Shown here in pieces: positions 11,384 through 27,504 of a stretch of 40,536 nt of DNA. The position numbers were made by a program, and so were the translations under genes. Positions within the stretch are counted from its first letter, which is position 1, and every line of letters starts with the position of its first letter. Under the pieces are notes generated by a model that did not search any database, was not told where the DNA came from, and worked only from the letters and a program-made list of their open reading frames with translations. This DNA is from Nitriliruptorales bacterium (GTDB lineage: Bacteria; Actinomycetota; Nitriliruptoria; Euzebyales; Egibacteraceae): assembly GCA_009377835.1 (NCBI GenBank), contig WHTG01000006.1:1-40536 (forward strand). Reading direction: 5' to 3'.

Positions 11384-11401
11384 CTCGCGAACCAACGCGA
11401 G
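11384..11401 (+). promoter_or_regulatory. Hairpin overlapping the GH1 ribosome-binding site
   Basis: CTCGCG, six bases, then CGCGAG form a perfect 6-bp stem with an AACCAA loop. The right arm includes the first two bases of the AGGAG ribosome-binding site (11400-11404) of the GH1 gene. If formed in the mRNA it would partly mask that site. The structure is visible in the sequence; a regulatory role is inference. Confidence 0.35.
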
Positions 11402-11412
11402 GAGTCGCCCGG

Positions 11413-12654
11413 ATGCCGGAGGAGTCACAGCAGTTGCGCCCGGAGGGGCTGGAGGACGTCGCGGCGTTGGAGTCGGGAGCCATCGTGCACGGGCTGCGGT
11501 TTCCGCGCGGATTCGAATGGGGCGCGGCGACGTCCGCATACCAGGTCGAGGGCGGACTGGACGCCACGGACTGGTCGGAGTGGGAACGTCAGCCCCGCGG
11601 TGGCTGCGTCGAAGCGGCCGGTGACGCCGTCGACCACTACCACCGCTTCGGCGAGGACATCGCACTGCTTGCCGACCTCGGTCTCACCGCCTATCGGTTC
11701 TCGATCGAGTGGTCGCGCGTCCAGCCACGTGACGGCGAAATGGACGAGGGCGCACTCGATCATTACGAGGCGATGGTCGAAGCCTGTCATGCGGCCGGCC
11801 TGTCGGCGTGCGTGGCGTTGCACCACTTCACCAATCCGCTGTGGGTGAGCCGTGACGGCGGTTGGGAGAATCCGCGCACCGTCGACCTGTTCACGTCCTT
11901 CTGCACCGCCGTGGCCAGGCGGCTCGGTCCGAAGCTGGACCGCGCGATCACCATCAACGAACCCAACATGCCGCCGCTCCTGGGGTACCTGCTTGGGAGG
12001 TTCCCGCCTGGGAAGCGTGATCCGCAGGCCCGCGAGCGGGTGACGCGGCACTTCCTGCGTGCGCACGAACAGGTGCGCGACGTCCTGAGCGACCATACGG
12101 ACGCTCCGGTCGGCATGGCACTGGCGATGGTGGACTGGCAGCTGGTCGACGGGGGCGAGGAGCATCTGCAGCAACTGCGGGGGCCGCGCGAGGACGTGTT
12201 CCTGCAGGTAGCCCGCGACGATGACTACATCGGCGTCAACACCTATACCCGTCACCGTGTCGGTCGGCACGGCTTCATGGACGTCGAGGAGGGCGTGGAG
12301 CTGACGCACATGGGTTACGAGTTCTGGCCGGATGCCCTGGAGGCGACGGTCAGGCGGGCGGCGGGCGAGACCCGCAGACCTGTGGTCGTGACGGAATGCG
12401 GCATCGGCACCAAGGATGACGCCCGCCGGATCGTGTTCATCGCAGCGACCGTGCGGGGCATCCACAACTGCCTCGCGGCAGGTGTCGACGTACGCGGGTA
12501 CCACTACTGGAGCGCGCTGGACAACTTCGAGTGGAACCACGGGTACGCCCCGCAGTTTGGGATCGTGGCAGTCGACCGCACGACGCAGCAGCGCAGGGTG
12601 AAACCCAGCGGCCGATTCCTCGGCCGAATCGCGCGTGACGCAGGATTGCCCTAG
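11413..12654 (+). CDS. Glycoside hydrolase family 1 (beta-glucosidase-like)
   Basis: A 413-residue (beta/alpha)8-barrel hydrolase. The start at 11413 has AGGAG 8 bases before it; upstream in-frame sequence looks non-coding. GH1 hallmarks are FEWGAATSAYQVEG near 34-47, HYHRFGEDIALLADLGL at 75-91, FSIEWSRVQP, the acid/base in TINEPN (Glu183) and the nucleophile in VTECG (Glu328). Cys replaces the usual Asn after the nucleophile Glu, making TECG instead of TENG. WSALDNFEWNHGY near the end forms the aglycone and sugar site. It lacks a signal peptide, so it acts in the cytoplasm. It is shorter than the usual 440-480. It faces the minus-strand glycosyltransferase operon tail-to-tail, sharing the bases CTAG with the scar gene. 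It may trim an intermediate of that pathway. Confidence 0.92.
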   Translation: MPEESQQLRPEGLEDVAALESGAIVHGLRFPRGFEWGAATSAYQVEGGLDATDWSEWERQPRGGCVEAAGDAVDHYHRFGEDIALLADLGLTAYRFSIEWSRVQPRDGEMDEGALDHYEAMVEACHAAGLSACVALHHFTNPLWVSRDGGWENPRTVDLFTSFCTAVARRLGPKLDRAITINEPNMPPLLGYLLGRFPPGKRDPQARERVTRHFLRAHEQVRDVLSDHTDAPVGMALAMVDWQLVDGGEEHLQQLRGPREDVFLQVARDDDYIGVNTYTRHRVGRHGFMDVEEGVELTHMGYEFWPDALEATVRRAAGETRRPVVVTECGIGTKDDARRIVFIAATVRGIHNCLAAGVDVRGYHYWSALDNFEWNHGYAPQFGIVAVDRTTQQRRVKPSGRFLGRIARDAGLP

Positions 12655-12806
12655 GTGATCGCGTGCCTGGACGGGCACCACTCGATCGTGAGGTCCAGGC
12701 CGTCTTCCGAAGACACCACGGGATCCCACCCAGTAAATGCCGTGCTGACCAACCTGACGTGCCCCGCTCCGATGATGCCGATCTTCAGCCCGTCACCTTC
12801 TTCCAT
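12651..12806 (-). pseudogene. Deletion scar: dehydrogenase N-terminus fused to epimerase C-terminus
   Basis: A 51-codon open frame starts inside the end of the methyltransferase gene (overlap 12785-12806). It begins MEEGDGLKIGIIGAGHV, the first strand and glycine loop of a UDP-glucose-dehydrogenase-type Rossmann fold (compare KIxVIGxGYVGLV). After STAF it continues TGWDPVVSSEDGLDLTIEW to a stop, which matches how NAD-dependent sugar epimerases and decarboxylases end (LGWxPxVxxEEGLxxTIEW). So two ends, possibly from two neighbouring genes (a ugd-type and an epimerase or decarboxylase), appear joined in frame with everything between lost. The Rossmann glycine motif is degraded (GHVR for GHVG). 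The product is too short for catalysis. The family matches are recalled, not searched. Confidence 0.6.
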
Positions 12807-13591
12807 TGTCGTGCCCTGCGCACGGCCAGATCCAGTTCCGAGCGGTCGACCTGCACGTCCGGCGCCGGTTCGCAGAGGTAGATCTCGTGTCCGGGCCGTG
12901 CCGTCACGCGCAGACCCGTCGAGCGGACCATCGCTTCCACCGCAGCGTGGTTCGGTGCCCACCAGTTCGTGTGATCGTCGGCGAGCCGCCCTTCGATGAA
13001 GGCCATCTTGGGCCAGCCTCCCGAGAGCATCCGGTGACGTTCGGCCAACGGCAAGTCATCAGGGACGGTGTCGACGTCGTCACCCGGCATCGTCAGGGTC
13101 TGCAGGACCAGCAGCTTGTCGGTCAGGTCCGCGACGAGGTCGAGTGCCAGCAGCGGGTACCGGAGGTGGTACAGCACTCCCATGAACACCACGAGGTCGA
13201 AGGCCTCGGCGGTGTCGGCCAGGTCGTAGATGGTCCGGCGCTCGAACTCGACGCTGCCGGACATCCCGAACATCTCCGCAGCCCACCGCGCCTGCGTGAG
13301 ATAGTGCTCGTCCTGGTCGATCGCAAGGACGTGTGCGCCCCGCGCCGCAACCTCGAAGGTGTAGAAGCCGGCGTTGCACCCGATGTCGAGCACCCGCCAC
13401 CCCTGAAGATCCTGGGGAATGTGTGGCTCGAGTTGCCGCCACTTGTAGGAGGGATAGTCCGCCAGGGGGTGATCGGGAGCAGTCTGGTGTCCCGTTGGCA
13501 GGTGCAGGTTGTGGAACCACGGTGCCAACATTCGGATCTGCCGACCGATCTCGTCGTCGGGGCTGTCGCCACCCAGTGATTGCAGGGTCAT
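12785..13591 (-). CDS. SAM-dependent methyltransferase, TIGR04290-like
   Basis: A 268-residue class I methyltransferase. Motif I is VLDIGCNAGFYTFEVA (about 67-82), followed by the acidic LAIDQDE, and VVFMGVLYHLRYPL is the motif IV-V region. The N-terminal WFHNLHLPTG and later SYKWRQLEPHIP are typical of the CmoB-like and TIGR04290 groups, which I recall next to sugar genes. It is probably an O- or C-methyltransferase acting on the sugar chain or its lipid. The ATG overlaps the preceding CgeB-like gene by 4 bases (ATGA, 13588-13591). It is the last intact gene of the minus-strand operon. Confidence 0.88.
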   Translation of the reverse strand: MTLQSLGGDSPDDEIGRQIRMLAPWFHNLHLPTGHQTAPDHPLADYPSYKWRQLEPHIPQDLQGWRVLDIGCNAGFYTFEVAARGAHVLAIDQDEHYLTQARWAAEMFGMSGSVEFERRTIYDLADTAEAFDLVVFMGVLYHLRYPLLALDLVADLTDKLLVLQTLTMPGDDVDTVPDDLPLAERHRMLSGGWPKMAFIEGRLADDHTNWWAPNHAAVEAMVRSTGLRVTARPGHEIYLCEPAPDVQVDRSELDLAVRRARQWKKVTG

Positions 13592-14670
13592 GTCGGGCTC
13601 CGTCCGAGTGCCGGTTCCACCGACTGCAGGAGCGCGACCAGTTCTGCTGCCCGCGCATGGGCAGTGTGGTCCCTGAGCACCCGCTCGCGTGCCCGGCGCC
13701 CGATGTCGTGCCGCTGGGGGTCGGCAATGTCTCGCAGGTAGCCGCGTACCTGGTCGCGGTCGTCCGCGATCAGGATCTCCGAGTCGAGGCGGAAGAACTC
13801 ACCGAGCCCCGTCCACCGATCCGAGATGACGGGAACCGCACACGCTGCGGCTTCGAACAACCGCACGCTGGGCGAGCATCCCGCCTGGATCATCTGAGTC
13901 CTTGTGACGTTCAGCGTGAAGCGCTGCGCGTTGTAGAAGCCACCGTGCCGCGGGGGCGGAAGGTGCTCGATGCGCTCGACGTTCAGCGGCCAGTCAATGG
14001 TCTGCGGGTACTGCGGTCCGGCGACTGCGAACCGGCGGGAGGATTCGGCCATGGCGGGTTGCAGCAGCAACTCGTCCAAGCTGGGCTGACGATCCGCGCT
14101 GTACGTGCCGAGGTATCCCAGGTCCCACCGTGGCTCGCGGCCGTCGGGGTAGTAGCCGTCGGGATCAACCATGCAGTAGAACGCCCTCGCACGTGGTGAC
14201 CCGAACTCCCGCTCGAGCCGTTCCAGCGTCGGCCCCCCGGTGAAGGACAGGTACAGCTCGTAGCGGCGGACCAATTCACGGGAGAGGTACTCCTGATCGC
14301 CTGCCTCCAGCTTCTCCAGCGTCACCGGCGTGTCGATGTCGTAGAAGGCCGTCACACCCCGTGCCGTTCGACACACCCAGTTGCCCACGGCGACTCCCTG
14401 GGGAACGTAGGACCCGACGATCACGGCGTCGGCCTCGCGCACGCGGTCCGCGTGGGTACGTGTCAGTTCGTCGAACGACCCGTACAGGAATGTTTCCCCC
14501 CACGGCGGCGCCGGCAGGTCGCGCTGACCGGCGTACCACGGCATGTCCCGTTCCAGGAACGTCACGACGTGCCCTGCTGCTTCGAGCGCGCGCATCAAGC
14601 CTCGGTAGTTCGTGGCGTGCCCGTTGCCCCACGACGACGTGACGGACAGGCCGACGAAGACGATGTCCAT
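13588..14670 (-). CDS. CgeB-like glycosyltransferase 1
   Basis: A 360-residue GT-B protein. The N-terminal Rossmann domain opens MDIVFVGLSVTSSWGNGHAT with a NYRGLMRALEAAGH helix. The C-terminal donor domain has SPSVRLFEAAACAVPVISDR (about 275-300), the CgeB/Glyco_trans_1_2 signature, and WTGLGEFFRLDSEILIADD. ATG directly follows the stop of the previous gene (14670/14671), so translation is coupled. It is the third of three paralogues in tandem, with similar architecture and length. It probably transfers a sugar from a nucleotide donor in the cytoplasm; donor and acceptor are unknown. The spore-glycan protein CgeB is the namesake, but no sporulation role is implied. Confidence 0.87.
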   Translation of the reverse strand: MDIVFVGLSVTSSWGNGHATNYRGLMRALEAAGHVVTFLERDMPWYAGQRDLPAPPWGETFLYGSFDELTRTHADRVREADAVIVGSYVPQGVAVGNWVCRTARGVTAFYDIDTPVTLEKLEAGDQEYLSRELVRRYELYLSFTGGPTLERLEREFGSPRARAFYCMVDPDGYYPDGREPRWDLGYLGTYSADRQPSLDELLLQPAMAESSRRFAVAGPQYPQTIDWPLNVERIEHLPPPRHGGFYNAQRFTLNVTRTQMIQAGCSPSVRLFEAAACAVPVISDRWTGLGEFFRLDSEILIADDRDQVRGYLRDIADPQRHDIGRRARERVLRDHTAHARAAELVALLQSVEPALGRSPT

Positions 14671-15744
14671 CTAGGCGTCCCGTCCCTGGAGAACCGCCTC
14701 GACCCGGGCCGCACGGTCGGCGTAGGTGTGGTCGCGAAGTATCCGCCGGCGCGCGGCGTGCCCGATCGCGCGCGCCTGCTCGGTTGACACGCTGTGCAGG
14801 TACGCCGTGACGTCGTCGCCTCCATGCGCGACGAGCACCTCGGCATCGGGTTCCAGGAACATCTCGATGCCCTCCCACGCATCGGTGATCAGGCAGGCGC
14901 CTGCTCCTGCTGCTTCGAATACCCGGGTGGCCGGCGAATAGCCATTGGCGGCCATCGACTCCCTCGAGATGTTCAGGACCATCCGGGCCGAGCAGTTCAG
15001 GGCGTTGTGGTCTCCCGGGGCGACATGGCCGAGATACCGCAGGTTCTGCGCGCCCGCACGGTCGTCCCACCCGGCTCCTCCGAGCACGAACGTCGCAGAC
15101 GGCGCCCTGCCAACGGCACGGAAGAAGAACTCGTCGACACGGGCTTCGCGGTCGGGCAGGCGGTTGCCCAGGAACGTCAGGTCAGCGGCGAACCGCGGAT
15201 CGGCCGGCACGGGAAAGTGTGTCGACTGGTCCAGTGCGTTGTAGATCGGAAGGCAGCGACGCGCCCCCAGGGCGGCATAGCGACTCACCACAGGGTCACC
15301 GCCCCCATAGGTGAAGATCAGGTCATAACTGCCGATCAGTGACCGCAGACGATCGTGTGGGTCCTGCTCCATCCGACCCAGAGTGGCCGGCGCATCCACG
15401 TCCCAGAAGACCACGATGTTGCCTGGGCGCTTCAACTCCAGCACGGCCTGTTCGAGCACGTCGTCAAAGACCCCGACGCCGCTGGCCTTGACGACGACAT
15501 CCGCGCCCGCTGCGCGTTGCACGGTTCGCCGCACCTGCTCAGCCGTCTCAGCGGCGTAGACGACATCGCGTGCCCAGTCGGGATCGGGAATGTCGCGGTG
15601 CGCCTGGCGGTCGAAGGCGTGGGGTTCGAAGAACGTCACATCATGACCGCGCGTCGCCAGGTTCCTCACGATGCCGCGGTAGTACGTGCACGCGCCGTTC
15701 CAGTACGCCGACACCAGACTGGACCCGAAGAACGCGAACTTCAC
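14671..15744 (-). CDS. CgeB-like glycosyltransferase 2
   Basis: A 357-residue GT-B protein beginning MKFAFFGSSLVSAYWNGACT with the same YYRGIVRNLATRGHDVTFFE helix-strand as its neighbours. An acidic VVFWDVDAPATL loop lies mid-protein and the donor-site signature is SPATRVFEAAGAGACLITDA, followed by WEGIEMFLEPDAEVLVAHGG. The start overlaps the upstream gene stop (ATGA, 15741-15744). It resembles the next gene more than the previous one. Three such enzymes in a row suggest stepwise addition of three sugars or recognition of different acceptors; this is inference. Confidence 0.87.
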   Translation of the reverse strand: MKFAFFGSSLVSAYWNGACTYYRGIVRNLATRGHDVTFFEPHAFDRQAHRDIPDPDWARDVVYAAETAEQVRRTVQRAAGADVVVKASGVGVFDDVLEQAVLELKRPGNIVVFWDVDAPATLGRMEQDPHDRLRSLIGSYDLIFTYGGGDPVVSRYAALGARRCLPIYNALDQSTHFPVPADPRFAADLTFLGNRLPDREARVDEFFFRAVGRAPSATFVLGGAGWDDRAGAQNLRYLGHVAPGDHNALNCSARMVLNISRESMAANGYSPATRVFEAAGAGACLITDAWEGIEMFLEPDAEVLVAHGGDDVTAYLHSVSTEQARAIGHAARRRILRDHTYADRAARVEAVLQGRDA

Positions 15745-16823
15745 GACATCTCCTCGTAGATCGACAGCAGCTCATCGACGCGGTGGGTGCACGTGTGGCG
15801 TGCCCGGATCGTTTCCAGCCCGGACCGCACCAGGCGGTCGGCCAGCCGGGCGTCGCCGAGCACGGCCTTGATCTGTTGTTGCATCTCGGCACCCGAGGAG
15901 GCGAGCAGGTAGTCGCGCCCGGGGCGGAACAGCCGTTCGCTGTCATCCCACGGCGCGCAGATCAACGGGATCCCGCAGGCAAGTGCTTCGAACACCCTGA
16001 TCGTCGGCACGCCATTCAAGCTTCGTGCGTAGGGTCGCCGTGGGATGTGCAGCGTCAGCCGGTGGCGTGCGAACTCCTGCGGCACTCGGTGGTTGGGAAT
16101 CCACCCGCCGAATCGCAGCCCGGCGGCCTTGATGTGATCCACCGCCTCGGGCGGGTAGCGCACCCCGTGGATCGTCCCCGACAGTTCGAGCGCCCGTGCG
16201 GGTGTGAACAGATATTCCTCGAGTTCGCTCTCACGCTCGCCGTCGCCCCAGTTTCCGATCCACACGAGATCGGCGGTGGTCGTCGCCTCGATCGGGTGGA
16301 AGACGCGGGTGTCGGCTGCCTCGTGCCAGGTCCACGCGCGCCGTGACCAACCACGTGCGATGTAGATGTCGCGGATCACCTTGCCGAACGCGAGCACGCC
16401 GTCATAGCCGCTGAGATCGAACTGCTGTATCGACTCCGGTCGCGTCACCGCTCGGTGGTGGGTGTCGTGAAACAGCAGCTTGGACCCAGGCGCGCGGCGG
16501 TGCTGCCCGATGAGCGCGACGAGTTCCGGCTCGTTCCACTCGTGCACGATCACCAGGTCCGCGCCCGACAACACGTCGTGCAGCTCCAGCGACCCCGCGT
16601 CGTAGAGCGTGCTGCGAAGCTGCGGGAACCGCTGGGTGAACTCCGTGACAGCGGCGTCCCCGTGGGTTCGGGCCAGATTCGACCGGCTCCATCCGCCCTG
16701 CGGCTCGAAGACGCCGACGTCGTGGCCGCGGTCGATCAGTTCTGCGACGACCCCACGCAGGAAGTGCGCGTTCCCGTGGTTCCAGTCGGACACCAACGAG
16801 TGAACGAACATCACGATCTTCAC
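15741..16823 (-). CDS. CgeB-like glycosyltransferase 3
   Basis: A GTG at 16823, overlapping the upstream GT4 stop (GTGA), gives 360 residues starting VKIVMFVHSLVSDWNHGNAH. An in-frame ATG 42 bases upstream lies inside the upstream gene and adds an odd tail. The acceptor domain has NAHFLRGVVAELIDRGHDV and the donor domain has VPTIRVFEALACGIPLICAP with WDDSERLFRPGRDYLLA. It also has HEWNEPELV and a His-rich LLFHDTHHRAVT. It is the first of the three paralogues to be translated. The fold and family are clear and the substrates are not. Confidence 0.86.
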   Translation of the reverse strand: MKIVMFVHSLVSDWNHGNAHFLRGVVAELIDRGHDVGVFEPQGGWSRSNLARTHGDAAVTEFTQRFPQLRSTLYDAGSLELHDVLSGADLVIVHEWNEPELVALIGQHRRAPGSKLLFHDTHHRAVTRPESIQQFDLSGYDGVLAFGKVIRDIYIARGWSRRAWTWHEAADTRVFHPIEATTTADLVWIGNWGDGERESELEEYLFTPARALELSGTIHGVRYPPEAVDHIKAAGLRFGGWIPNHRVPQEFARHRLTLHIPRRPYARSLNGVPTIRVFEALACGIPLICAPWDDSERLFRPGRDYLLASSGAEMQQQIKAVLGDARLADRLVRSGLETIRARHTCTHRVDELLSIYEEMS

Positions 16824-17884
16824 GACCGAGTCTGCACCTGGCCCGCGCGATCCCCGCACAGCCACGCGTACAGCTGCTCGTACGCTGTGGCCATGATCTG
16901 CGGCGAGAACCTGGCGGCTCGTTCGGCAGCCGCAGCCTGCCGCTCGGTGAGCGCCGCACGGTCGTCGATCAGCGACTGCAACGCCGCCCGCAATCCGTTC
17001 TGGTCCGACGGGTCGATGTAGGTGGCGGCGTCCCCCCAGACCTCGCGGAGGCTGGCGATGTCACCCAGGACCAGCGCGCACCGCGCCAGCGCGGCCTCCA
17101 GCGCCGCGAGGCCGAATGGCTCGTAGCGCGCAGGCTCGACGAAGATCTGGGCCTGCGCCAGGAGCCGCCGCAACTGCGCGCCCTCCAACGGCCCGAGCAC
17201 GCCACCCCCCGGGACGTCACCGGACCCCGCGACGAGCAGCGGCCAGCGCAGGCCGTCGGCGGCCCGGACCGCCAACGCGACGTTCTTAGCCTCGTCCCAC
17301 ACCCGGCCAGCCGCCACGATGACGTCCCTCTTCGCCTCGTGGGTGTCGTAGCCGGTGCGGCCGTTGTGGACGACGGTGGTGGTCGACGTGATGCCGTACG
17401 CGTTGTGCAGATCCTCGCGCAGCGCCTCGGTCGGGACGACCACCAGATCTGCGGCTGCAAGTCCTCGCGCAACCTGCCTGCGGTACCGCTCCCACTCCGG
17501 CGGCGGATCGGCACCGTGGACTGCCCGCCACCAGGTGACGACGTCGGAGTGCGCGACGACCATCACCGGGCGTCCCCAGGGCAGCGCGGCGTGGCTGTAG
17601 TCGTTGAGGTGGACGACATCAGAATCGTGGACTTCAGCGAGGTCCAGCAGCCACTCACCTGCCGCCGCCACCTCCGACCAGGCATCGCGCATCCACTCCA
17701 GCCGGAACGGCCGCGCGTCCCACTCGATGCCCAGCAGCTCGACGTCTCGGCGTTGACCACGGGTGAGTTCCCCGCCCGTGACCGCGAGGAGGACGTCGTG
17801 GCCGCGCGCGCACAGCTGGGTACTCAGTTCCAGAGCGTACGTCCATACTCCCCCGATGCAGTCGGCGCTCATGAGAACCTTCAT
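16820..17884 (-). CDS. GT4-family glycosyltransferase
   Basis: A 354-residue retaining GT-B enzyme. The ATG at 17884 overlaps the stop of the Gfo/Idh gene (ATGA) and gives MKVLMSADCIGGVWTYALEL, the usual GGxWxY acceptor loop of GT4. Residues up the strand from this ATG are arginine-rich and non-homologous. The E-x7-E donor motif is EPFGLAALE. VIVAAGRVWDEAKNVALAVR and the VVHNGR hinge are also typical of the group. It probably uses an NDP-sugar in the cytoplasm and belongs to the same transcript as the CgeB-like trio, so it may start or branch the same chain. Confidence 0.88.
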   Translation of the reverse strand: MKVLMSADCIGGVWTYALELSTQLCARGHDVLLAVTGGELTRGQRRDVELLGIEWDARPFRLEWMRDAWSEVAAAGEWLLDLAEVHDSDVVHLNDYSHAALPWGRPVMVVAHSDVVTWWRAVHGADPPPEWERYRRQVARGLAAADLVVVPTEALREDLHNAYGITSTTTVVHNGRTGYDTHEAKRDVIVAAGRVWDEAKNVALAVRAADGLRWPLLVAGSGDVPGGGVLGPLEGAQLRRLLAQAQIFVEPARYEPFGLAALEAALARCALVLGDIASLREVWGDAATYIDPSDQNGLRAALQSLIDDRAALTERQAAAAERAARFSPQIMATAYEQLYAWLCGDRAGQVQTRS

Positions 17885-18870
17885 GACGCTCTGCCGTAGA
17901 TCAGGTCCAGGGTTCCGGCGACATCGAGGATGCGCTCTATTCGCGGGTCGTAGCCCGCCCCGACGCTCAGTGAGTCGGCCCAGGCGACCAATGCGCGCCC
18001 GCCCCAGTCGTCCCCCGGCCCCACCAGGCGCTGCCACGAGCGGCCCCGGTACAGGTTGCACTCGAAGTCGTAGAACGACCCGTTGCAGTTCCGCGCTGAC
18101 ACACCACCGTCGGTGCCGTGGAACGTGGCGTCGACCACGGCGTCGGTGCCCGCGTCGAGGAACCAGGAGCACGCGAGCCGCACGCTGGCGCCGTCAGACA
18201 TGGTGAGCTGCGCGACGGCATAGTCCTCCACGGAGCGCGCGAGATCGGTCAGCGGTTCGCCCTTGACGAACAACTGGGCCGTCACCGACTGCGTCGTCGT
18301 CTGCAGTGCCCACAGGGCGATGTCGACCAGGTGGGTCCCGAGGTCGATGACGCAGCCGCCCCCCGATTGCGCCGGATCGGTGAACCACGGCTTGTCCGGG
18401 CCGTACGCGTTGTGGAAGACCAGATCGGTGGCGTACACACGTCCGATCGCGCCGGCCCGAACCGTGTCGACCGCCGCACGAAACGCATCGATGTGGCGGT
18501 AGGACAGGTCAACGCCCAGGAGGAGGTCGTTGTCGCGGGCGGCACGGACGACCCGTGCACATTCGGCCCGTGTCCGGCCGAGCGGTTTCTGGCAGAACAC
18601 CGGCACACCGTGCCCCATCGCCGTCAGCGCCTGCCGGGCATGCAGCGCGCTTGGCGTCGCCAGCACGACCCCGTCGAGCGGTTGCTGCAGCGCCGCCTCC
18701 AACGACGGCACCACCACGGCGCATCCGACTTCCGCGGCCGCTCTGGCGGCTCCCTCCTCGTCAGGGTCCGCGACGACCGCCGCGTCCGCCGCACCCGCCT
18801 GCACGGCTGAACGCATCCGCGCACTGCCGATCCAGCCGGCGCCGACGAAGGCCAAGCGCGGGCGGGTCAT
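17881..18870 (-). CDS. Gfo/Idh/MocA-family oxidoreductase
   Basis: A 329-residue NAD(P)-dependent dehydrogenase. The N-terminal Rossmann fold has FVGAGWIGSARM and the family lysine motif is FCQKPLGRT (Gln instead of the usual Glu before Lys-Pro). The catalytic region is SGGGCVIDLGTHLVDIALW (His at about 180). These enzymes oxidise or reduce sugars or cyclitols. In a sugar cluster it probably makes a keto intermediate or an aminosugar precursor, although no aminotransferase is present here. The start overlaps the alcohol dehydrogenase stop by 4 bases (18867-18870). Confidence 0.9.
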   Translation of the reverse strand: MTRPRLAFVGAGWIGSARMRSAVQAGAADAAVVADPDEEGAARAAAEVGCAVVVPSLEAALQQPLDGVVLATPSALHARQALTAMGHGVPVFCQKPLGRTRAECARVVRAARDNDLLLGVDLSYRHIDAFRAAVDTVRAGAIGRVYATDLVFHNAYGPDKPWFTDPAQSGGGCVIDLGTHLVDIALWALQTTTQSVTAQLFVKGEPLTDLARSVEDYAVAQLTMSDGASVRLACSWFLDAGTDAVVDATFHGTDGGVSARNCNGSFYDFECNLYRGRSWQRLVGPGDDWGGRALVAWADSLSVGAGYDPRIERILDVAGTLDLIYGRAS

Positions 18871-19811: not shown

Positions 19812-19822
19812 CCGGCGGCCCC

Positions 19823-21916
19823 TCAGCCGGCCGAGTCGGTGCCACCTGTTACCGCGGGCACGACTGCGAGAGGCCTGTCTGCGTGTTCGATCAGCCAGCG
19901 GTGCAGCCGCGTCAGACCCGCCTCGGCCTTGACCGTCGCCTGCCAACCGGTCGCGGCTTCGAAACGCGAGGTGTTCGAGACGTAGTAGCGCTGGTCTCCA
20001 GGACGCCACGCGGCGAACGACACTTCTGGTGCCGCACCGTGGATCCGCTCGATCGCGCGGAGTACCTCGACCAAGCTCACGGTGTTGGCCGGGCCACCGC
20101 CGATGTTGAACGCCCGACCGTCCATCAAGGTGCGGGACTCGGAAAGCAGCCTGCGGACGGCATCGACGAGATCGTCGACGAACAGGATGTCGCGCACCTG
20201 CTTCCCATCTCCGTAGACGGTGATCGGCAGTCCCCGGATGGCGTGGATCAGGAAATGCGCGACCCATCCCTGGTCCTCGGTGCCGAGCTGGTGCGGTCCG
20301 TAGACACAGCTCATGCGGAACACCGCGCTGCGGAAGCCGAAACTGCGGGCGTAGTCGAGGACGTATTGGTCTGCGGCGCCCTTTGAGGACCCGTAGGGAC
20401 TGCAGAATGCCAGCGGGTGGTCCTCGCCGATCCCCGAGGCGGCGATCACCTCGTCCTCCGGCTCGTAGCGTGCGACGTGCTCCGTCAGTTTCACGTCGTC
20501 GAGATCCCCGTAGACCTTGTTGGTGGAGGTGAACAGGATCGGCGGTGCAGCCTCCAGCCGCCGCATCTCCTCGAGCAGGTTGAACGTTCCGCGCAGGTTC
20601 ACGTCGAAGTCGTGCACCGGGTCGTCCCGGCTCGACGTCACCGCGACCTGCGCCGCGAGGTGGACGACTTCGTCCGCCTCCCGCAGCGCTCGGCGGATCG
20701 CGAAGCGGTCCCGCATGTCGCCGATCATGGGAATGATCAGCGAGCCGTGGGTGTCAATGAGCCACCGAAGGTTTCGCTCCGTGCCCGGTCGCGAGAGGTT
20801 GTCCAGGACGACAACCGGTTTCTTGTCGCGGGCGATCCGGTCGGCAAGGTTCGTGCCGACGAAGCCGGCGCCGCCCGTGATCAACGTGGGACGCACCTGG
20901 TGAAGCTCGATGCGGGGCTGCCCCAGTTTCGCGAAGCGGCGGACTTCGTCGAAGCCCTGCTCGGCCCACACCCGTGCGGCCAGCTTCGGCCGTCCCTCGT
21001 TGGTGAACAGGCCGAAGTGGTAGGCACGTTCGTCGGCATGGAAGCCGTCCAGTGTCGCGCGTTCCGGTGCGAGGTCCTCGGCGCTGTACCAGTAGACCCG
21101 CGCCACGGGCGCCTCGACGACCTCAACGAGTTCGGTGAGCATCCGGAACTCGTCGTGGTGCCAGGTCGAGAACCCACACTCGGTGATCCAGATCTGCGCC
21201 GGCGATCCGTGCGCGTCGAGCACCTCCTGCGGCCGGTTGACCTGTGCGTCCCATCCGTCCCACACCGCTTCCCACGTGCCGGGAAAGCCATGGATTCCCA
21301 GGACGTCGATGTCGGCCATCGCTCCGCGGTTGAACATGAGATGGAGCCAGTTGGGATCCATGGGACTCATGCCACCGAGGACGGTCCGCACCTCGTGCCG
21401 CCTCGCCGCCGCAGCCGCGCCGGCGATCATGTCGGCGAAGATCTTCCACTCCGGGTCGACGGTCCAGTCCCACTCGATGAAGTTGTTCGGCTCGTTCCAC
21501 AGCTCGACGTGCGAGAAGAACCCGCCATAGGTGGTCAGCAGCTGGTCGACGAATGCGGCGAAGTCGTCGGGGTCACGCGGGGGTGACGAGGTCTTCGGCA
21601 GAATACCGAGGTGCGTCGGCGTGTAGAGCACGCACGGGGTGACATCGAAGCGGTCGGTCAGCTTCGGCAGGAGCCAGTCGTACCACTCGCGCCCGCCTTC
21701 GTTGACGAAGTCGTGCCACGACACGGACGTGCGCAGGCGCGTCACCCCCAGCGAGGCGAGCTCCTCGACGACCCGCTCCACCTTGTGGTAGTCGCGGATG
21801 TGGAAATACGACACCACCCCCAGGTCCGGGTTGCCTGTTCGGCGCTCCCTTTCCTCCGGCTGCATCCCGTCATCGTCCTGCGGTCCGAACCGGATCGTGT
21901 CGACGATCCGGCTCAT
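19823..21916 (-). CDS. Fusion: glycoside hydrolase (clan A-like) + NAD-dependent sugar epimerase
   Basis: A 697-residue two-domain protein. Residues about 28-325 form a TIM-barrel hydrolase resembling GH39/GH5: SVSWHDFV near 64-71, the acid/base in ELWNEPNN (Glu142) and the nucleophile in WITECGFS (Glu246). After a short linker, residues 343-685 form an extended SDR: TGGAGFVGTNLA (348-357), the Y508-G-S-S-K512 active site, FTSTNKVYGD, and FRMSCVYGPHQLGTEDQGW, the last two characteristic of CDP-paratose/tyvelose 2-epimerase relatives. The domain junction is continuous, with no frameshift or internal ribosome-binding site that I can see. No signal peptide is present. The hydrolase could release a sugar that is salvaged, or edit a product, while the SDR makes the nucleotide sugar; this is inference. 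Confidence 0.9.
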   Translation of the reverse strand: MSRIVDTIRFGPQDDDGMQPEERERRTGNPDLGVVSYFHIRDYHKVERVVEELASLGVTRLRTSVSWHDFVNEGGREWYDWLLPKLTDRFDVTPCVLYTPTHLGILPKTSSPPRDPDDFAAFVDQLLTTYGGFFSHVELWNEPNNFIEWDWTVDPEWKIFADMIAGAAAAARRHEVRTVLGGMSPMDPNWLHLMFNRGAMADIDVLGIHGFPGTWEAVWDGWDAQVNRPQEVLDAHGSPAQIWITECGFSTWHHDEFRMLTELVEVVEAPVARVYWYSAEDLAPERATLDGFHADERAYHFGLFTNEGRPKLAARVWAEQGFDEVRRFAKLGQPRIELHQVRPTLITGGAGFVGTNLADRIARDKKPVVVLDNLSRPGTERNLRWLIDTHGSLIIPMIGDMRDRFAIRRALREADEVVHLAAQVAVTSSRDDPVHDFDVNLRGTFNLLEEMRRLEAAPPILFTSTNKVYGDLDDVKLTEHVARYEPEDEVIAASGIGEDHPLAFCSPYGSSKGAADQYVLDYARSFGFRSAVFRMSCVYGPHQLGTEDQGWVAHFLIHAIRGLPITVYGDGKQVRDILFVDDLVDAVRRLLSESRTLMDGRAFNIGGGPANTVSLVEVLRAIERIHGAAPEVSFAAWRPGDQRYYVSNTSRFEAATGWQATVKAEAGLTRLHRWLIEHADRPLAVVPAVTGGTDSAG

Positions 21917-23028
21917 CGCGCGAGGCCCCGGCTGCTCAGCTCCATGGCCGCGTCGTCCACGCGGTCGACCGCCACCTGTCCTTCAAGCCACTGGGCGAGA
22001 GCGGCCACCCCTTCCTCGAGGTCGATGGCTGGCTCGAAGGCCAGCAGCTCCCGGGCGAGTGTGATGTCGGCGAAGCAGTGGCGGATGTCCCCTACGCGGT
22101 ACTTGCCGGTCACCTCAGGCTCGATGTGGGACTTCCCAGTCACTTTGGCCAACTGCTCGGCGACCTCTGTCACGGTGGCACTGCGGCCGCTGCCGATGTT
22201 CAGGACGTGGCCGACAGCGTCGTCAGCGATCAACGCCAGGTGGCACGCGCGCGCGACGTCTTGCACGGCCACGAAGTCACGCCGTTGCTCACCGTCCTCG
22301 AAGACCATGGGGGGGCGGTTGTTGAGCAACCGGGCAGCGAAGATCGCCAGAACGCCGGTGTAGGGATTCGACAGCGCCTGGTCCGGTCCGTACACGTTGA
22401 AGAAGCGCAGGGCGACGGTGGGAACGCCGTACGCGGCACCGTACAGCAGGCACATGCGTTCCTGGTCGTATTTGCCCAGTGCGTAGACGGAGGACAGGCT
22501 CGGCGGCTTCGTCTCCGGTGTCGGCAGCGGCTCGAGTGATTCACCGTCCAGACCCAGTGGGTCCCACTGCTTGCGTGCCAGCTGGTCCGGCGTTCGTTGG
22601 ATGTTGTCGTGCAACGTACCGTCGGGGGCCCGGTACAGTCCCTCGCCGTAGACGCTCATGCTCGATGCCACCAGCAGCCGGCCGACGTCGCGCTGCGCCA
22701 TCGCATCCAGCAGCACGCCGGTGCCGTGTGTGTTCACGCTGGTGTAGTCCGCAATTTCGTACATGCTCTGGCCGACACCCACCCGTGCCGCGAAGTGCAC
22801 GACGTCGTCGACACCGTCCAGCGCGCGGCTGACGGCCTGTGGGTCGCGAAGGTCCCCGATCACCAACTCGACATCATCGTCCAGGTAGTGCGGTCGCGCG
22901 CCTGCCTCGTGTACCTGCGGATTGAGATCGTCAAGCGCTCGGACGGTGAACCCGCTGTGCAGCAGCTCGCGACCCACGTGGGACCCGATGAAGCCGGCAC
23001 CTCCGGTTATCAGCACACATTCAGACAC
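21913..23028 (-). CDS. NAD-dependent sugar epimerase/dehydratase (extended SDR)
   Basis: A GTG at 23028 with GGGGG about 6 bases upstream gives 371 residues starting VSECVLITGGAGFIGSHV; the in-frame upstream extension is not SDR-like. The NAD-binding loop is TGGAGFIG, the active site S-S-V-Y182-A-L-G-K186, and the substrate region RFFNVYGPDQALSNPYTGV. The insert QWDPLGLDGESLEPLPTPE is characteristic of a subset of UDP-sugar 4-epimerases. It is the first gene of the long operon, overlapping the fusion gene by ATGA (21913-21916). It probably supplies a nucleotide sugar to the glycosyltransferases downstream. Confidence 0.9.
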   Translation of the reverse strand: MSECVLITGGAGFIGSHVGRELLHSGFTVRALDDLNPQVHEAGARPHYLDDDVELVIGDLRDPQAVSRALDGVDDVVHFAARVGVGQSMYEIADYTSVNTHGTGVLLDAMAQRDVGRLLVASSMSVYGEGLYRAPDGTLHDNIQRTPDQLARKQWDPLGLDGESLEPLPTPETKPPSLSSVYALGKYDQERMCLLYGAAYGVPTVALRFFNVYGPDQALSNPYTGVLAIFAARLLNNRPPMVFEDGEQRRDFVAVQDVARACHLALIADDAVGHVLNIGSGRSATVTEVAEQLAKVTGKSHIEPEVTGKYRVGDIRHCFADITLARELLAFEPAIDLEEGVAALAQWLEGQVAVDRVDDAAMELSSRGLAR

Positions 23029-23210
23029 GGAAACCCCCTGACATTCGTCCCGGGTTGGGTCTCCCCTCGGCCTGGACTGCCCGACGGGATCGGACTCTTG
23101 CTGTTGCCGCCGCGCGGTGTCCAGGCGAAGCAGGCATCTGTGCACGTAGTTCTCCCTATCCTAGGAGCAGAACGCAATACCCGATCCTGTCCGGGGTACG
23201 CACGGTCGCC
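23029..23210. promoter_or_regulatory. Divergent intergenic region between the two arms of the glycan locus
   Basis: About 180 bases separate the epimerase start (minus) and the sulfotransferase start (plus), so both arms must be promoted here. A TATCCT/TAGGAT pair around 23157-23163 fits an actinobacterial -10 element in either direction. No convincing -35 sequence lies 16-18 bases from it. Low-confidence promoter assignment; the position between divergent operons is clear. Confidence 0.4.
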
Positions 23211-24038
23211 GTGACAACGCCGCAACATCTCGTCATCGTGTTCCTGTCCACCGGTCGGTGCGGGACTCAGTCGCTCGCGACGCACCTGGGCGAGGTCTAC
23301 AGCGACCTGGCGGTGGTGGCGCACGAACCGATCGGACCGGACTACCGGTGCCGTGAGTTCTTCCGCGCCTACGACGGGGTTCACGCCATGTCCGGAGATC
23401 CCGTGATCGCGGCACACCTGAGCCACATCGACTGCGTCGCGAGACACAGGACGTATGTCGAGACCGGGTGGCCGCTGTTCTCCGCCATACCGCTGTTCGT
23501 CGACAGGTTCGGCGAACGTCTTCGTATCGTTCACCTCACGCGGCACCCGGTGCCAACCGCTATCTCGCACATGGTCCACAAGACCTACGCCGGCAGCCCC
23601 CGCGTCGACGGCTACACCAAGCTCGCCGCACTGGACCCCTGGTGCGACGGAATCTTCCAGCGCGAGGCGCGCGGACGGTGGGACCATATGACGCCGTTCG
23701 AGAAGACCCTGTTCTGGTGGACGGAGGTGCACCTGTATGCGGAAGAGGTGGCCGCTCGATACCCACAGGTCCCGTTTCACCGGGTGAAAGCGGAGGAACT
23801 ACTGAGCGGCAACCCCGAACCGCTCCGCGCGCTGTGCGGGTTCCTCCAGCTGCCCTTTCGCGCAGTACTCACGGAGCGGATGACCAGACCCGTCGACCAA
23901 TGGCGTCACCGCACCGAGATGGAGTTCGACTGGCGTCGAGCGCTCGAGCATCCCCAGACCCTGGCCGTCACCGAGCGTCTTGGCTATCGCATGAAAGACG
24001 TTGATGATGCTGCGCTTGCGGATCGTTACAGCCGGTAG
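23211..24038 (+). CDS. PAPS-dependent sulfotransferase-like protein
   Basis: A GTG at 23211 gives 275 residues starting VTTPQHLVIVFLSTGRCGTQ. The phosphosulfate loop is STGRCGTQSLA (13-23), in place of the classic PxSGTTW-type loop. The 3'-phosphate region is RIVHLTRHPVPTAISHM. A protein-final dimer-like helix is absent. Family enzymes move sulfate from PAPS to sugars or lipids. An in-frame ATG at 23055 would add 52 low-complexity residues and lie across the divergent promoter, so the GTG is preferred, although its ribosome-binding site is weak. It heads the plus-strand arm, followed by a glycosyltransferase and a phosphatase, which suggests a sulfated product. Confidence 0.78.
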   Translation: MTTPQHLVIVFLSTGRCGTQSLATHLGEVYSDLAVVAHEPIGPDYRCREFFRAYDGVHAMSGDPVIAAHLSHIDCVARHRTYVETGWPLFSAIPLFVDRFGERLRIVHLTRHPVPTAISHMVHKTYAGSPRVDGYTKLAALDPWCDGIFQREARGRWDHMTPFEKTLFWWTEVHLYAEEVAARYPQVPFHRVKAEELLSGNPEPLRALCGFLQLPFRAVLTERMTRPVDQWRHRTEMEFDWRRALEHPQTLAVTERLGYRMKDVDDAALADRYSR

Positions 24039-24083
24039 GTGCCGGCGGCTGGAATCGCCGCTGGCCGGGGGGGTGAGCCGGTC

Positions 24084-25256
24084 GTGAGGCTTCGTGTGTT
24101 GTTCCTCACGTGCCACCTGCCGTTCCCACCCGTCAGCGGCGGCCGTCGCCGCGAATTCGAGTTGCTGCGTCGAATCGGCCGGGAGGTCGACGTGTCGGTG
24201 TGCGCGATCTCGAAGACGTATGAGGAAGACCGCTCCAACGCGGGTGCGCTGGCGCCCTACTGCACGGACGTCCGCGTGGTACCTGCTGAACCCGCGCGGG
24301 CAAGCGACGTCATCCCGTTCCAGGTGCTGCGCCACCGCTCACGGCACGTGCGGCGGGCGCTGCGGAAGGCCCGCTATGACGTGATCCACGTCGAGGGCTT
24401 CTACCTGATGCAGCACCTGCGGCACATCGAGCCGGGACCCACCGTGCTGGTGGAACAGAACATCGAGTACCAGCTGTGGGAACAACGTGCCGCACATGCG
24501 CGCGGCACGGCCGCATGGCGACACCGGCGCGAGGCGGAGCGCACGCGGGTGGCTGAGCAGGAGGCGTGGCGCACCGCCGACGTCGTCGCTGCCCTGACCG
24601 AGGAGGACCGCGCTGTCATCCGTGCGAGCGGGATCGACCACGTGCCGTTGGTGCCCGATGGCATCGCGCGAGCGCAGGATCACCTGGCCCCCACCGTTGA
24701 GGGGTCACGTCCTGTGGTGACGTTCATCGGAAACTTCGCCTACGAGCCGAACGTCGACGCGGCTCAGCACTTCGTCAAACGCGTGCTGCCGCGTCTTGTC
24801 CACTCCGTTCCCGACGTGCACGTGATGCTGGTGGGCAACGCGCCTTCCATGGCGGTCCGTGCACTGGCCGGGCGCCACGTCACCGTCACCGGCCGGGTCC
24901 CGGACGTAGGGGAGTACCTTCAGGCGGCGACGGTCGTCGTCTGTCCGCTGCGTGTCGGGGGTGGCGTGAAGGTCAAAATGCTCGAGGCATTGGCGTATTC
25001 CAAAGCGATCGTCAGCACTTCCGTCGGCACCCAGGGGCTGGGTCCCGGGGTTCATGAGGCCGTGGTCGAGGCAGACGACCCGGTCCCGATGGCCGCAGCG
25101 ATTGCCGAGTTGTTGCGCGACCCGCAACGCCGCCGCAGCCTGGAGGCCGCGGCTGGGGCGCATGCCGCGACCTTGCCCACCTGGGAGGACGCGGCCGAAG
25201 CGCTGGTCGGCTGCTACCGCCTCGCCGCCACTGGCAGACAGCCGCTTGATGCGTGA
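24084..25256 (+). CDS. GT4-family glycosyltransferase
   Basis: A GTG at 24084 with a GGGGTGAG stretch about 8 bases upstream gives 390 residues starting VRLRVLFLTCHLPFPPVSGG, the usual glycine-rich acceptor loop. An earlier in-frame GTG at 24039 abuts the sulfotransferase stop but adds 15 unneeded residues. The donor domain has VTFIGNFAYEPNVDAAQHFV and GGGVKVKMLEALAYSKAIVS. The pattern resembles the PEP-CTERM/XrtA-type GT4 group (TIGR03087-like), which I name tentatively. It overlaps the next gene by 8 bases. It probably extends the same glycoconjugate as the minus-strand enzymes. Confidence 0.87.
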   Translation: MRLRVLFLTCHLPFPPVSGGRRREFELLRRIGREVDVSVCAISKTYEEDRSNAGALAPYCTDVRVVPAEPARASDVIPFQVLRHRSRHVRRALRKARYDVIHVEGFYLMQHLRHIEPGPTVLVEQNIEYQLWEQRAAHARGTAAWRHRREAERTRVAEQEAWRTADVVAALTEEDRAVIRASGIDHVPLVPDGIARAQDHLAPTVEGSRPVVTFIGNFAYEPNVDAAQHFVKRVLPRLVHSVPDVHVMLVGNAPSMAVRALAGRHVTVTGRVPDVGEYLQAATVVVCPLRVGGGVKVKMLEALAYSKAIVSTSVGTQGLGPGVHEAVVEADDPVPMAAAIAELLRDPQRRRSLEAAAGAHAATLPTWEDAAEALVGCYRLAATGRQPLDA

Positions 25257-26013
25257 CGACGTTCTGGCGGTGCTCAACGAGGCGTACCGCGCGGTTGTCG
25301 AAGGCCTCGGTTCGCTGGCGGATTGGGGCGCGCAGGGAAGCAGGCCCGACCAGTTCGCCTGCGACATCGTGGCGGATGAGGCGGCGTTCAAGGTGCTCGA
25401 CGCCGCCGGCGTCGGCGTGGTGAGCGAAGAACGGAACGCTCAAGGCCTGGAGCGCGACATCGTCGTGGTCGTAGATCCCGTGGACGGGACCTCGAACGCG
25501 ATCCGGGGCATTCCCTACTACGCCATCAGCCTCTGTGCCGTCGACCGGCAGGGGATGCAGTCGTCGCTGGTCGTCAACCTGGCGACCGGCACCCGCTTCG
25601 AGGCGGTCCGTGGGCAGGGCGCACTCTGCGACGGCAGATCGATCGTGGCGAGCGACTGCTCGACGATGGAAGCCGCCTGGGTCGCCGTGTGCGGGCACCC
25701 TCGCCAGGAGCACCCGTGGCGACACATGAGGGCCTTCGGGGCGACGGCGCTGGAGTTGTGCGACGTCGCCCGGGGGCTGCTCGACGCTTATGTCAACACT
25801 GACGTCGACGCGATAGCTCCATGGGACTACCTCGGAGCCCTGCTCGTGTGCCACGAGGCGGGCGCGGTGTCGACGGACGGTTTGCAGCGACCGCTGGTCA
25901 CGACCGACCCGGCCGCGCGCCGCGCGCCGGTCGTTGCGGCAACGCCGTCTTTGCTGGCGGAGGCGGTCGGGTATGCCTGGCCTGGCCAGGCGCGGGAAAT
26001 CGCCGACAGGTGA
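25249..26013 (+). CDS. Inositol-monophosphatase-family phosphatase
   Basis: A 254-residue Mg2+-dependent phosphatase. Metal ligands are Glu60 (VSEER) and DPVDGTSN (Asp76, Asp79), and the second motif is WDYLGALLVCHEAG. The start at 25249 overlaps the glycosyltransferase end by 8 bases. Substrates in this family include inositol-1-phosphate, fructose-1,6-bisphosphate and 3'-phosphoadenosine-5'-phosphate (PAP, by CysQ). The GTSN motif looks closer to inositol-type enzymes. Its neighbourhood with a sulfotransferase, which releases PAP, makes a PAP-phosphatase role worth testing. Confidence 0.88.
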   Translation: MRDDVLAVLNEAYRAVVEGLGSLADWGAQGSRPDQFACDIVADEAAFKVLDAAGVGVVSEERNAQGLERDIVVVVDPVDGTSNAIRGIPYYAISLCAVDRQGMQSSLVVNLATGTRFEAVRGQGALCDGRSIVASDCSTMEAAWVAVCGHPRQEHPWRHMRAFGATALELCDVARGLLDAYVNTDVDAIAPWDYLGALLVCHEAGAVSTDGLQRPLVTTDPAARRAPVVAATPSLLAEAVGYAWPGQAREIADR

Positions 26014-26076
26014 GGCTCCTCCGGGGCATCTGGGGGCCAGGTGATCCCATGCGGGCACCGTGGAAGAATCGCCGCC

Positions 26077-26793: not shown

Positions 26794-26856
26794 TGGTCAA
26801 TTCGTTGCCAGGCGCGGCTCTTGCGCGCGACGGCCGGGGGCTCCCAGGGGGACCCG

Positions 26857-27504
26857 ATGTCCGACATCCCCGTTCCTGACGAGCACGTGCACGCTGCGTT
26901 CCTCGCCGCGCCCGGATTCATGCCGGAGGACGAGGGGCTGGCGTTGTACGCCGCAGCGGTCGAGGTCGCCCCGCTGGGACCGCTGGTCGAGATCGGCAGC
27001 TACTGCGGTCGGTCGACACTGCTGCTCGCCGCCGCAGCCGCCACGTCGGGGACGCATGTCGTCACCGTCGACCATCACCGTGGGTCGGAGGAGCACCAGG
27101 CAGGATGGGAGTACCACCAGCCGGAACTGGTGGATCCAACCGCCGGCCGGATCGATACCCTCCCGACCTTTCGTCGCGTCGTGGCGACCTCGGGACTGGA
27201 GTCGCATGTGGTGGCCGTGGTCGCCGCCGCCCAGGATCTCGGGCGCTACTGGTCGACTCCCGTCGCGATGGTGTTCGTCGACGGCAGCCACACCGAGGAG
27301 TCCGCGCGGCGCGACTACCTGACATGGTCGCCCCACGTCATGGACGGCGGTTTCCTGGCGGTGCACGACGTCTTCGAAGATCCGGCCGACGGGGGGCAGG
27401 CGCCGTACCACATGTACCGGAGGGCGCTCGAGTCGGGAAACTTCGCCGAGGGCGGCGGGTGCCGTTCGCTGCGGCTACTTCGTCGCGTGGCAGAGCACGG
27501 CTGA
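26857..27504 (+). CDS. Class I SAM-dependent methyltransferase (Methyltransf_24-like)
   Basis: The start at 26857 has AGGGGG about 6 bases upstream and gives 215 residues. The SAM loop is LVEIGSYCGRSTLLLAAAAA (about 45-64). HVVTVDHHRGSEEHQ follows, then VFVDGSHTEESARRDYLTWS and GGFLAVHDVF, the CmcI-like metal/SAM region. The acceptor is unknown. Its 3' end overlaps the toroid protein gene tail-to-tail by 30 bases (27475-27504). It is the last gene of the plus-strand arm of the glycan locus. Confidence 0.85.
   Translation: MSDIPVPDEHVHAAFLAAPGFMPEDEGLALYAAAVEVAPLGPLVEIGSYCGRSTLLLAAAAATSGTHVVTVDHHRGSEEHQAGWEYHQPELVDPTAGRIDTLPTFRRVVATSGLESHVVAVVAAAQDLGRYWSTPVAMVFVDGSHTEESARRDYLTWSPHVMDGGFLAVHDVFEDPADGGQAPYHMYRRALESGNFAEGGGCRSLRLLRRVAEHG

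Follow-up and report, generated by a model that had tools for sequence, protein, structure and literature searches.

A conserved, exporter-free sugar cassette of a Nitriliruptorales bacterium recurs in distant phyla and may direct synthesis of a soluble stress glycoside

The 40,536-nucleotide stretch of contig WHTG01000006.1 (hereafter the window) belongs to the genome of a Nitriliruptorales bacterium (3.34 Mb in 318 contigs) and was found to carry a sugar gene cassette with a nine-gene core on the minus strand and divergent genes on the plus strand. When gene content was checked with Pfam and NCBIfam profiles, the minus-strand operon encoded, in order of transcription, a short-chain dehydrogenase/reductase (SDR2), a fusion of a glycosidase module to a second such enzyme (GHx-SDR1), an alcohol dehydrogenase family protein (ADH), a Gfo/Idh/MocA oxidoreductase (Gfo), a GT4-family glycosyltransferase (GT4a), three CgeB-like glycosyltransferases (CgeB3, CgeB2 and CgeB1) and an S-adenosylmethionine (SAM) methyltransferase of NCBIfam family TIGR04290. 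The plus strand provides a sulfotransferase-like protein, a further glycosyltransferase (GT4b) and an IMPase-family phosphatase, and profile matches to an ANTAR regulator and a Methyltransf_24 protein were also detected in the window. An earlier annotation of this DNA made from the sequence alone (the first-pass annotation) had listed five glycosyltransferases, SDRs, oxidoreductases, methyltransferases and an IMPase, and the profiles confirmed this inventory, with the sulfotransferase call being weak. Its count of two glycosidase modules holds when a GH1-family gene is included, and does not hold within the interval it had delimited, as this gene lies just beyond that interval, convergent with the end of the minus operon. 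Six of the eight minus-strand junctions are 4-base overlaps, and the remaining two are a junction of 0 bases and a gap of 11. On the plus strand, the sulfotransferase and GT4b genes abut (provided that GT4b starts at GTG 24039) and GT4b overlaps the IMPase gene by 8 bases. The overlaps suggest co-transcription; the fixed stoichiometry that had been read from them does not follow.

An alignment of seven methyltransferases was used as query against 84,980 species genomes, and the best 80 of at least 568 related stretches were taken as loci with up to 10 kb of flank on each side. Together with loci from other sources these formed a comparison set of 90 (L010 and L011 being one cassette split in two). 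All nine core genes were wholly collinear in 41 of the 90 loci; in 23 of these a GHx module separates SDR2 from SDR1, and in 18 it does not. The order CgeB3-CgeB2-CgeB1 was collinear in 75 loci, and the methyltransferase was next in line in 64. Loci that departed from collinearity included short contigs and real rearrangements, such as the relocated or inverted methyltransferase or Gfo-ADH pair within the cassettes of rhizobia and Sphingomonas. The 78 loci with a named phylum cover 13 phyla, and two genomes of an Actinomycetota sample (G114 and G178) had the same genes as the window at 45-68% identity. The proposal of one pathway was supported, with an order conserved well beyond Actinomycetota. 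An order not conserved in relatives had been named beforehand as counting against that proposal; the order was found to be conserved, though sampled relatives in the family lack the cassette. Within groups the cassette is rare: TIGR04290 was detected in 1 of 21 family genomes, that of the window (many of the other 20 are incomplete), in 3 of the 396 genomes sampled from the phylum, the window genome included, and in 1 of 200 genomes of the order of Ramlibacter, this one being the search centre itself.

The history of the cassette was examined by a quick-method tree of four concatenated proteins (76 rows, after loci with missing or partial genes were dropped). The Actinomycetota rows formed one clade with a support of 98. 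Seven changes were needed for Pseudomonadota and four for Planctomycetota, which makes transfer plausible, as these numbers fit some transfer without proving it. Plasmid and megaplasmid copies were also found: 130 plasmid records match by the methyltransferase, and megaplasmid pSymB of Sinorhizobium meliloti carries a copy of the cassette, at about 233-249 kb in the coordinates of strain 2011. Both inheritance and transfer are plausible from these comparisons. The nine-gene block, with an order that recurs in distant phyla, is neither the product of chance nor a local oddity, and we read it as a dedicated, mobile and ancient cassette. A partial second locus was observed in Ramlibacter alkalitolerans (L099, G405:C8:43683-62000), where a second TIGR04290 gene stands beside CgeB and nucleotidyltransferase genes.

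No flippase, polymerase, ATP-binding cassette (ABC) exporter or initial phosphosugar transferase was detected in the window cassette, in agreement with the absence of the first three in the first-pass annotation. By a simple hydrophobicity scan, the window cassette proteins displayed no transmembrane pattern, with single hydrophobic stretches only in GT4a and ADH, which were taken as Rossmann strands. In the core spans of 86 loci, just 1 of 555 selected open reading frames (ORFs) had four or more hydrophobic stretches and was classed as multi-spanning; because of this, the lack of an exporter is a trait of the cassette itself. Within 3 kb outside the core, 14 membrane ORFs were found, with no widely common family among them.

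A link to inositol was apparent in part of the range of the cassette. The cassettes of Azospirillum, Bradyrhizobium and Roseomonas are annotated with inositol-3-phosphate synthase and histidine phosphatase; the clustered synthase was confirmed by PF01658 and is of the actinobacterial type, resembling mycothiol_INO1 (TIGR03450, 527/638 bits). The synthase gene was inside 21 of the 90 loci, with four named phyla represented (Pseudomonadota, Planctomycetota, Verrucomicrobiota and Thermodesulfobacteriota), and a genome-wide check of 50 of the 80 scan genomes detected inositol-phosphate synthase in 30. In Burkholderiales, the synthase was found in all seven cassette genomes, always within the fetched locus, compared to 1 among 199 further members of the order; the seven are mutually related and so not independent. 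Histidine phosphatase was near the cassette in 14 loci, of which eight also had the synthase. The window genome encodes inositol-phosphate synthase on another contig, and such an enzyme is expected in many Actinomycetota. For the synthase-bearing lineages, we infer that the acceptor would most simply be inositol or its phosphate. Two side observations were made at these loci. The clustered histidine phosphatase at L013:15378-15986 resembles the MSMEG_4193 family (157/204 bits); a gene of this type lies near mshC in mycobacteria, which makes it a possible clue to the phosphatase of the mycothiol pathway. In nine loci (for example, L013:17766-19517, L096:3375-5123, L097:15283-17043 and L048:8493-10286), three of these with inositol synthase in the stretch, the cassette is accompanied by a conserved protein about 585 residues long, which had no match in Pfam or NCBIfam and may share a motif with phosphoribosyltransferases.

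Promoters of the alphaproteobacterial general stress sigma factor EcfG have the form GGAAC-spacer-GTT. This pattern is consistent with the table passages on the Sphingomonas EcfG regulon available from PMC6599016; the EcfG-dependent ADH #2499 in those passages could not be tied to the cassette. The RpoE2 targets of S. meliloti are the subject of PMC3616915. The motif was sought with a looser spacing in a fixed 350 bases ahead of each cassette operon. By this approach, 13 hits were detected in 29 regions, with hits in 7 of 11 alphaproteobacterial loci, compared to an expectation of 0.75 based on the remaining sequence of these loci and to a mean of 0.73 (maximum 4) in 500 dinucleotide shuffles; some of the regions overlap at divergent operons, and the 11 loci include related ones (L091/L092, L014/L094 and L015/L096). 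The same scan gave no hits in 18 beta- and 8 gammaproteobacterial regions or in 13 Bacteroidota/Geomonas regions, groups in which, to our knowledge, EcfG is not expected. In S. meliloti, motifs of this type precede each of the two divergent operons as well as the gene for inositol synthase close by, and the cassettes of Paracoccus and Azospirillum lie near genes for extracytoplasmic function (ECF) sigma/anti-sigma factors, DUF1003 and YsnF/AvaK proteins. The alphaproteobacterial cassettes are thus predicted to carry EcfG-type promoters, which points to stress physiology in this group. A sigma-54-dependent response regulator was observed in the fetched flank of L018, L025, L039, L055, L060 and L064, and is a possible regulator of cassettes outside the alphaproteobacteria.

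Table 1. Features of the cassette and its surroundings, in positions of the window. Profile and structure matches are given with E values or bit scores.
Feature	Position	Strand	Evidence
GH1-family glycosidase	11299..12654	+	Glyco_hydro_1 E 2.9e-74; TINEP and VTECG motifs
TIGR04290 SAM methyltransferase, last gene of operon	12785..13591	-	~329 bits (329.3-329.5), curated cut-off 300; full member
CgeB-like glycosyltransferase 1 (CgeB1)	13588..14670	-	PF13524 E 9.9e-35
CgeB-like glycosyltransferase 2 (CgeB2)	14671..15744	-	PF13524 E 1.8e-38
CgeB-like glycosyltransferase 3 (CgeB3)	15741..16823	-	PF13524 E 3.3e-35
GT4-family glycosyltransferase GT4a	16820..17884	-	PF13439 E 2.2e-20; start ATG 17884
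Gfo/Idh/MocA oxidoreductase (Gfo)	17881..18870	-	PF22725 E 5.3e-25
Zinc-type alcohol dehydrogenase family protein (ADH)	18867..19811	-	ADH_zinc_N E 1.9e-17
SDR1 module of GHx-SDR1 fusion (fusion 21916-19823), CDP-tyvelose 2-epimerase-like	19823..20911	-	9rl0 E 8.8e-76; 1orr E 4.3e-70
GHx module of GHx-SDR1 fusion, PslG/GH39-like glycosidase	20912..21916	-	Predicted structure and catalytic glutamates
SDR2, GalE-like nucleoside diphosphate (NDP)-sugar epimerase/dehydratase, first gene of operon	21913..23028	-	PF01370 E 8.9e-51; 6wjb E 6e-41; start GTG 23028
Divergent intergenic region	23029..23210	.	Bounded by start codons of flanking genes
Sulfotransferase-like protein (accessory)	23211..24038	+	Sulfotransfer_3 24 bits, cut-off 27
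GT4-family glycosyltransferase GT4b (accessory)	24039..25256	+	PF13692 E 2.5e-26
IMPase-family phosphatase	25249..26013	+	PF00459 E 3.2e-29; 143/264 bits to bifunctional FBPase/inositol-phosphatase

The similarity of SDR1 to CDP-tyvelose 2-epimerase extends over residues 10-340 of 362, thus over its full length. GHx was related to the glycosidase PslG by profile (E 2.4e-9), and its structure model, with a mean predicted local distance difference test (pLDDT) score of 86, had PslG as best match by Foldseek (E 1.7e-18) and aligned to it by VIA-align with a Z of 27.7 and a root-mean-square deviation of 2.9 over 296 aligned residues. The matches that follow, a wide range of GH39 and GH1 enzymes, score about 3 Z units lower than PslG, and the assignment to GH39 over other clan A families rests on that gap. 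The model displays a (beta/alpha)8 fold with two catalytic glutamates, E142 and E246; GHx is probably an active cytoplasmic glycosidase, because 51 of 53 aligned sequences retain both residues. No hydrophobic stretch was detected in GHx by the simple scan, no dedicated signal-peptide predictor having been run. For the CgeB proteins no close solved relative was found (best E 7e-5), and their profile is remotely similar, at the level of the GT-B fold, to phosphatidylinositol mannosyltransferase PimB (3okc, E 1.6e-4). The TIGR04290 methyltransferase is nearest to CmoB and to sugar methyltransferases such as EvdMO1 and WbdD. The best NCBIfam match of Gfo is inositol 2-dehydrogenase, and among solved chains it lies closest to a dehydrogenase (6jw6), 1,5-anhydrofructose reductase and DgpA. 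An inositol dehydrogenase identity is not claimed for the Gfo/ADH pair: the top two NCBIfam matches are inositol enzymes but reached just 98/355 and 87/450 bits, and the neighbours among solved structures are mixed. No MshA equivalog was found in the cluster, with GT4a at 24.3/462.5 and GT4b at 28.5/462.5 bits. Genes for UDP-glucuronate decarboxylase were present in 14 of 87 loci. Two further observations concern other lineages. The B12 radical SAM enzyme TIGR04295 was found in five cassettes (L013, L014, L037, L084 and L094; two of the proteins scored 694 and 708 bits), all five without a clear ADH and Gfo pair in the stretch examined (a small number, with L037 cut on that side), and is a possible replacement of this redox pair. 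The Bradyrhizobium cassette (L014) encodes a phosphopentomutase (L014:17682-18887) and a nucleotidyltransferase (L014:15174-15980), hinting at an activated pentose.

Genes around the core were found to differ in their ties to it. In G114, G178 and G406 a GH1 homologue (53-56% identity) lies within the cassette or next to it, and homologues of GT4b and the sulfotransferase accompany the cassette in the same three genomes; outside the Actinomycetota relatives, none of the three genes recurs with it. The conserved GH1 gene belongs to the cassette; its similarity begins near residue 67 of the ORF, and its true start is probably downstream of the annotated one. The sulfotransferase-like protein, below the Sulfotransfer_3 cut-off, has an STGRCGT motif that is invariant in three relatives, had no sequence match among solved structures (PDB) and gave a single-sequence structure model with a pLDDT of only 38. 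Its gene was detected in 4 of the 28 cassette genomes searched, the window genome counted, and all four are Actinomycetota; a sulfated product is thereby ruled out as the general identity of the cassette. The IMPase, ANTAR and Methyltransf_24 proteins matched in 0 of the 90 loci at E 1e-8, which speaks against them as pathway genes and leaves them only as possible local partners. The first-pass annotation had counted plus-strand genes beyond GT4b as members and sulfation as a feature of the product; that membership was not supported, nor was sulfation as a general feature. A second small sugar cluster adjoins on the minus strand (27475-30705), encoding a GT4 protein, a SAM methyltransferase and a toroid-fold protein (27475-28575) with weak similarity to oligosaccharide amylase (45/821 bits); the toroid-fold protein had no match in the 90 loci at E 1e-8.

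Taken together, we favor a reading, at a probability of roughly 0.45, in which the cassette makes a soluble, methylated and often inositol-based stress glycoside that stays in the cytoplasm. The 2-epimerase-like SDR1, together with SDR2, would supply unusual nucleotide sugars, assisted in other lineages by the clustered UDP-glucuronate decarboxylase or nucleotidyltransferase. GT4a and the three CgeB-type enzymes would each transfer a single sugar onto a small acceptor, giving three to five sugars overall when GT4b is included. In many lineages this acceptor may be inositol or inositol phosphate from the clustered synthase and phosphatase, and in the window genome inositol could come from the unlinked synthase. 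The Gfo and ADH pair may oxidize and re-reduce one hydroxyl and so change its configuration, the TIGR04290 enzyme would O-methylate the product, and in the actinobacterial form GT4b and a sulfate group may be added. The GH39-like and GH1-like glycosidases, presumably cytoplasmic, would trim, edit or turn over the product, which may protect against stress as an oligosaccharide that acts like a compatible solute or guards against desiccation. A soluble stress protectant is proposed because it fits both the promoter motifs and a cassette free of export genes; we infer the acceptor, the linkage, the order of steps, the cytoplasmic fate, the stress role in Actinomycetota and all of the chemistry.

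Several points weigh against this reading. No inositol-phosphate synthase was detected in 20 of the 50 cassette genomes checked, including the isolates Pontibacter roseus, Xanthomonas sp. F10, Salinimicrobium xinjiangense, Marivirga and Luteimonas; among Bacteroidota the synthase was present in 2 of 8 cassette genomes and inside the cassette in no locus. The IMPase gene next to the cassette in the window does not recur with other copies, and the likeness of Gfo and ADH to inositol dehydrogenases is at superfamily level, far under the cut-offs. Of the alphaproteobacterial loci, 4 of 11 are free of the motif (Azospirillum, two near-identical Sphingomonas and Roseomonas). The motif spacing was loosened after a strict pattern had been run; this stricter first motif gave 8 hits over all 11 loci compared to about 5 expected, and only 3-4 of the hits precede cassette operons, with three at 76-102 bases before the start of the similarity of the operon and one at 347. 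An exporter may also be encoded elsewhere in the genome.

In a rival that we consider unlikely, a repeat unit or side chain for a cell-surface polysaccharide or exopolysaccharide is produced by the cassette, with lipid carrier, flippase and polymerase encoded elsewhere. SDRs, glycosyltransferases and a methyltransferase are gene types of polysaccharide loci, and the best counterpart of GHx is PslG, which belongs to the locus for Psl exopolysaccharide. Polysaccharide loci usually carry a phosphosugar transferase, flippase, polymerase or exporter; the window cassette has none of these, its enzymes all appear soluble by the simple scan, and the near absence of multi-spanning ORFs from the core of 86 loci argues in the same direction. 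Ramlibacter, a cassette-bearing genus, makes an exopolysaccharide that contains methyl groups and ribose, according to PMC9658432. Inositol was the internal standard of that analysis, so inositol in the Ramlibacter exopolysaccharide would have been undetectable there.

A sulfated, methylated glycolipid made at the membrane, one of the options in the first-pass annotation, is improbable. Compounds of this kind exist in Actinomycetota, the window encodes both a sulfotransferase-like protein and a methyltransferase, and the CgeB profile has its remote likeness to PimB; that match is however at fold level only, and the emphasis on glycolipid and sulfation is weakened because of the few cassette genomes with a sulfotransferase and the lack of any acyltransferase or lipid-handling gene in the cassette. 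We regard as more improbable still a secreted natural product, such as an aminocyclitol-like antibiotic or signal. The nearest solved chains of Gfo include glycoside-acting enzymes and five loci carry the radical SAM enzyme, and yet an identical order in 13 phyla, a core in which no gene for an aminotransferase, resistance or efflux was seen, and EcfG motifs that point to stress physiology in alphaproteobacteria all speak against it. CgeB glycosylates a protein of the Bacillus subtilis spore crust, and with three CgeB-family enzymes present the cassette might glycosylate a cytoplasmic protein; this appears very improbable, as no acceptor protein is conserved in the core and the linkage to inositol synthase would have no role.

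If the soluble glycoside reading is true, several hundred sampled species (at least 568 related stretches) have in common a dedicated sugar compound that is not known to have been isolated. With a conserved gene order, inositol as candidate acceptor and the general stress response as candidate inducer, the product should be findable by metabolomics in strains such as S. meliloti. The reading is relevant to the survival of soil and desert bacteria during drying, and to the use of unusual nucleotide sugars, 2-epimerase-glycosidase fusions and CgeB glycosyltransferases. A bolder form, which we hold doubtful, is that an unrecognized class of stress metabolite is made in at least 13 phyla, namely an inositol-anchored, O-methylated oligosaccharide (sulfated in some Actinomycetota) that would be a counterpart of plant galactinol and methylinositols and be under general stress control where that system exists.

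In open-licence literature (subscription journals may differ), no published characterization was found for TIGR04290, TIGR04295 or CgeB with epimerase and methyltransferase, consistent with the earlier claim of an undescribed pathway. The parts of this literature available on CgeB and glycosyltransferases yielded only Bacillus subtilis spore work, the available portion of the Ramlibacter genome paper (PMC3164672) does not mention the cassette gene tags, and those of PMC2912261 and PMC5591287 contain nothing bearing on the cassette. The cassette is apparently uncharacterized so far; new here are the links to inositol and general stress, and the reading as an exporter-free conserved pathway is strengthened. 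The nearest precedents in databases are two NCBIfam hypothetical equivalogs, TIGR04290 (meth_Rta_06860), of which the window methyltransferase is a full member, and TIGR04295 (B12_rSAM_oligo), found in the five related cassettes. These differ in being family models alone, and no pathway, product or cassette description was found with them; the short name B12_rSAM_oligo suggests that the curators suspected an oligosaccharide cassette.

Compatible-solute and desiccation sugars resemble the predicted product in that it is read as soluble, with no exporter, and under general stress control in alphaproteobacteria. Such sugars include trehalose, glucosylglycerate and plant galactinol and methylinositols and are built by one or two enzymes, whereas the cassette uses four conserved glycosyltransferases and several NDP-sugar enzymes; we know of no compatible solute with a matching gene set. 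Mycothiol biosynthesis (Ino1, MshA and a phosphatase) is similar in its clustered Ino1 type and in a possible logic of inositol phosphate, GT4 transfer and dephosphorylation, and differs in that GT4a of the window is far from MshA; the mycothiol pathway has no counterpart of the three CgeB glycosyltransferases, epimerases, methyltransferase and glycosidases. Wzx/Wzy and ABC-type polysaccharide loci, Psl included, are alike in enzyme types and in the PslG-like GHx, and differ from the window cassette, which is without a membrane step. PslG itself has a membrane or periplasmic location, unlike GHx with its lack of a hydrophobic stretch. SDR1, similar over its whole length to CDP-tyvelose 2-epimerase, differs from that enzyme in being often fused to a glycosidase.

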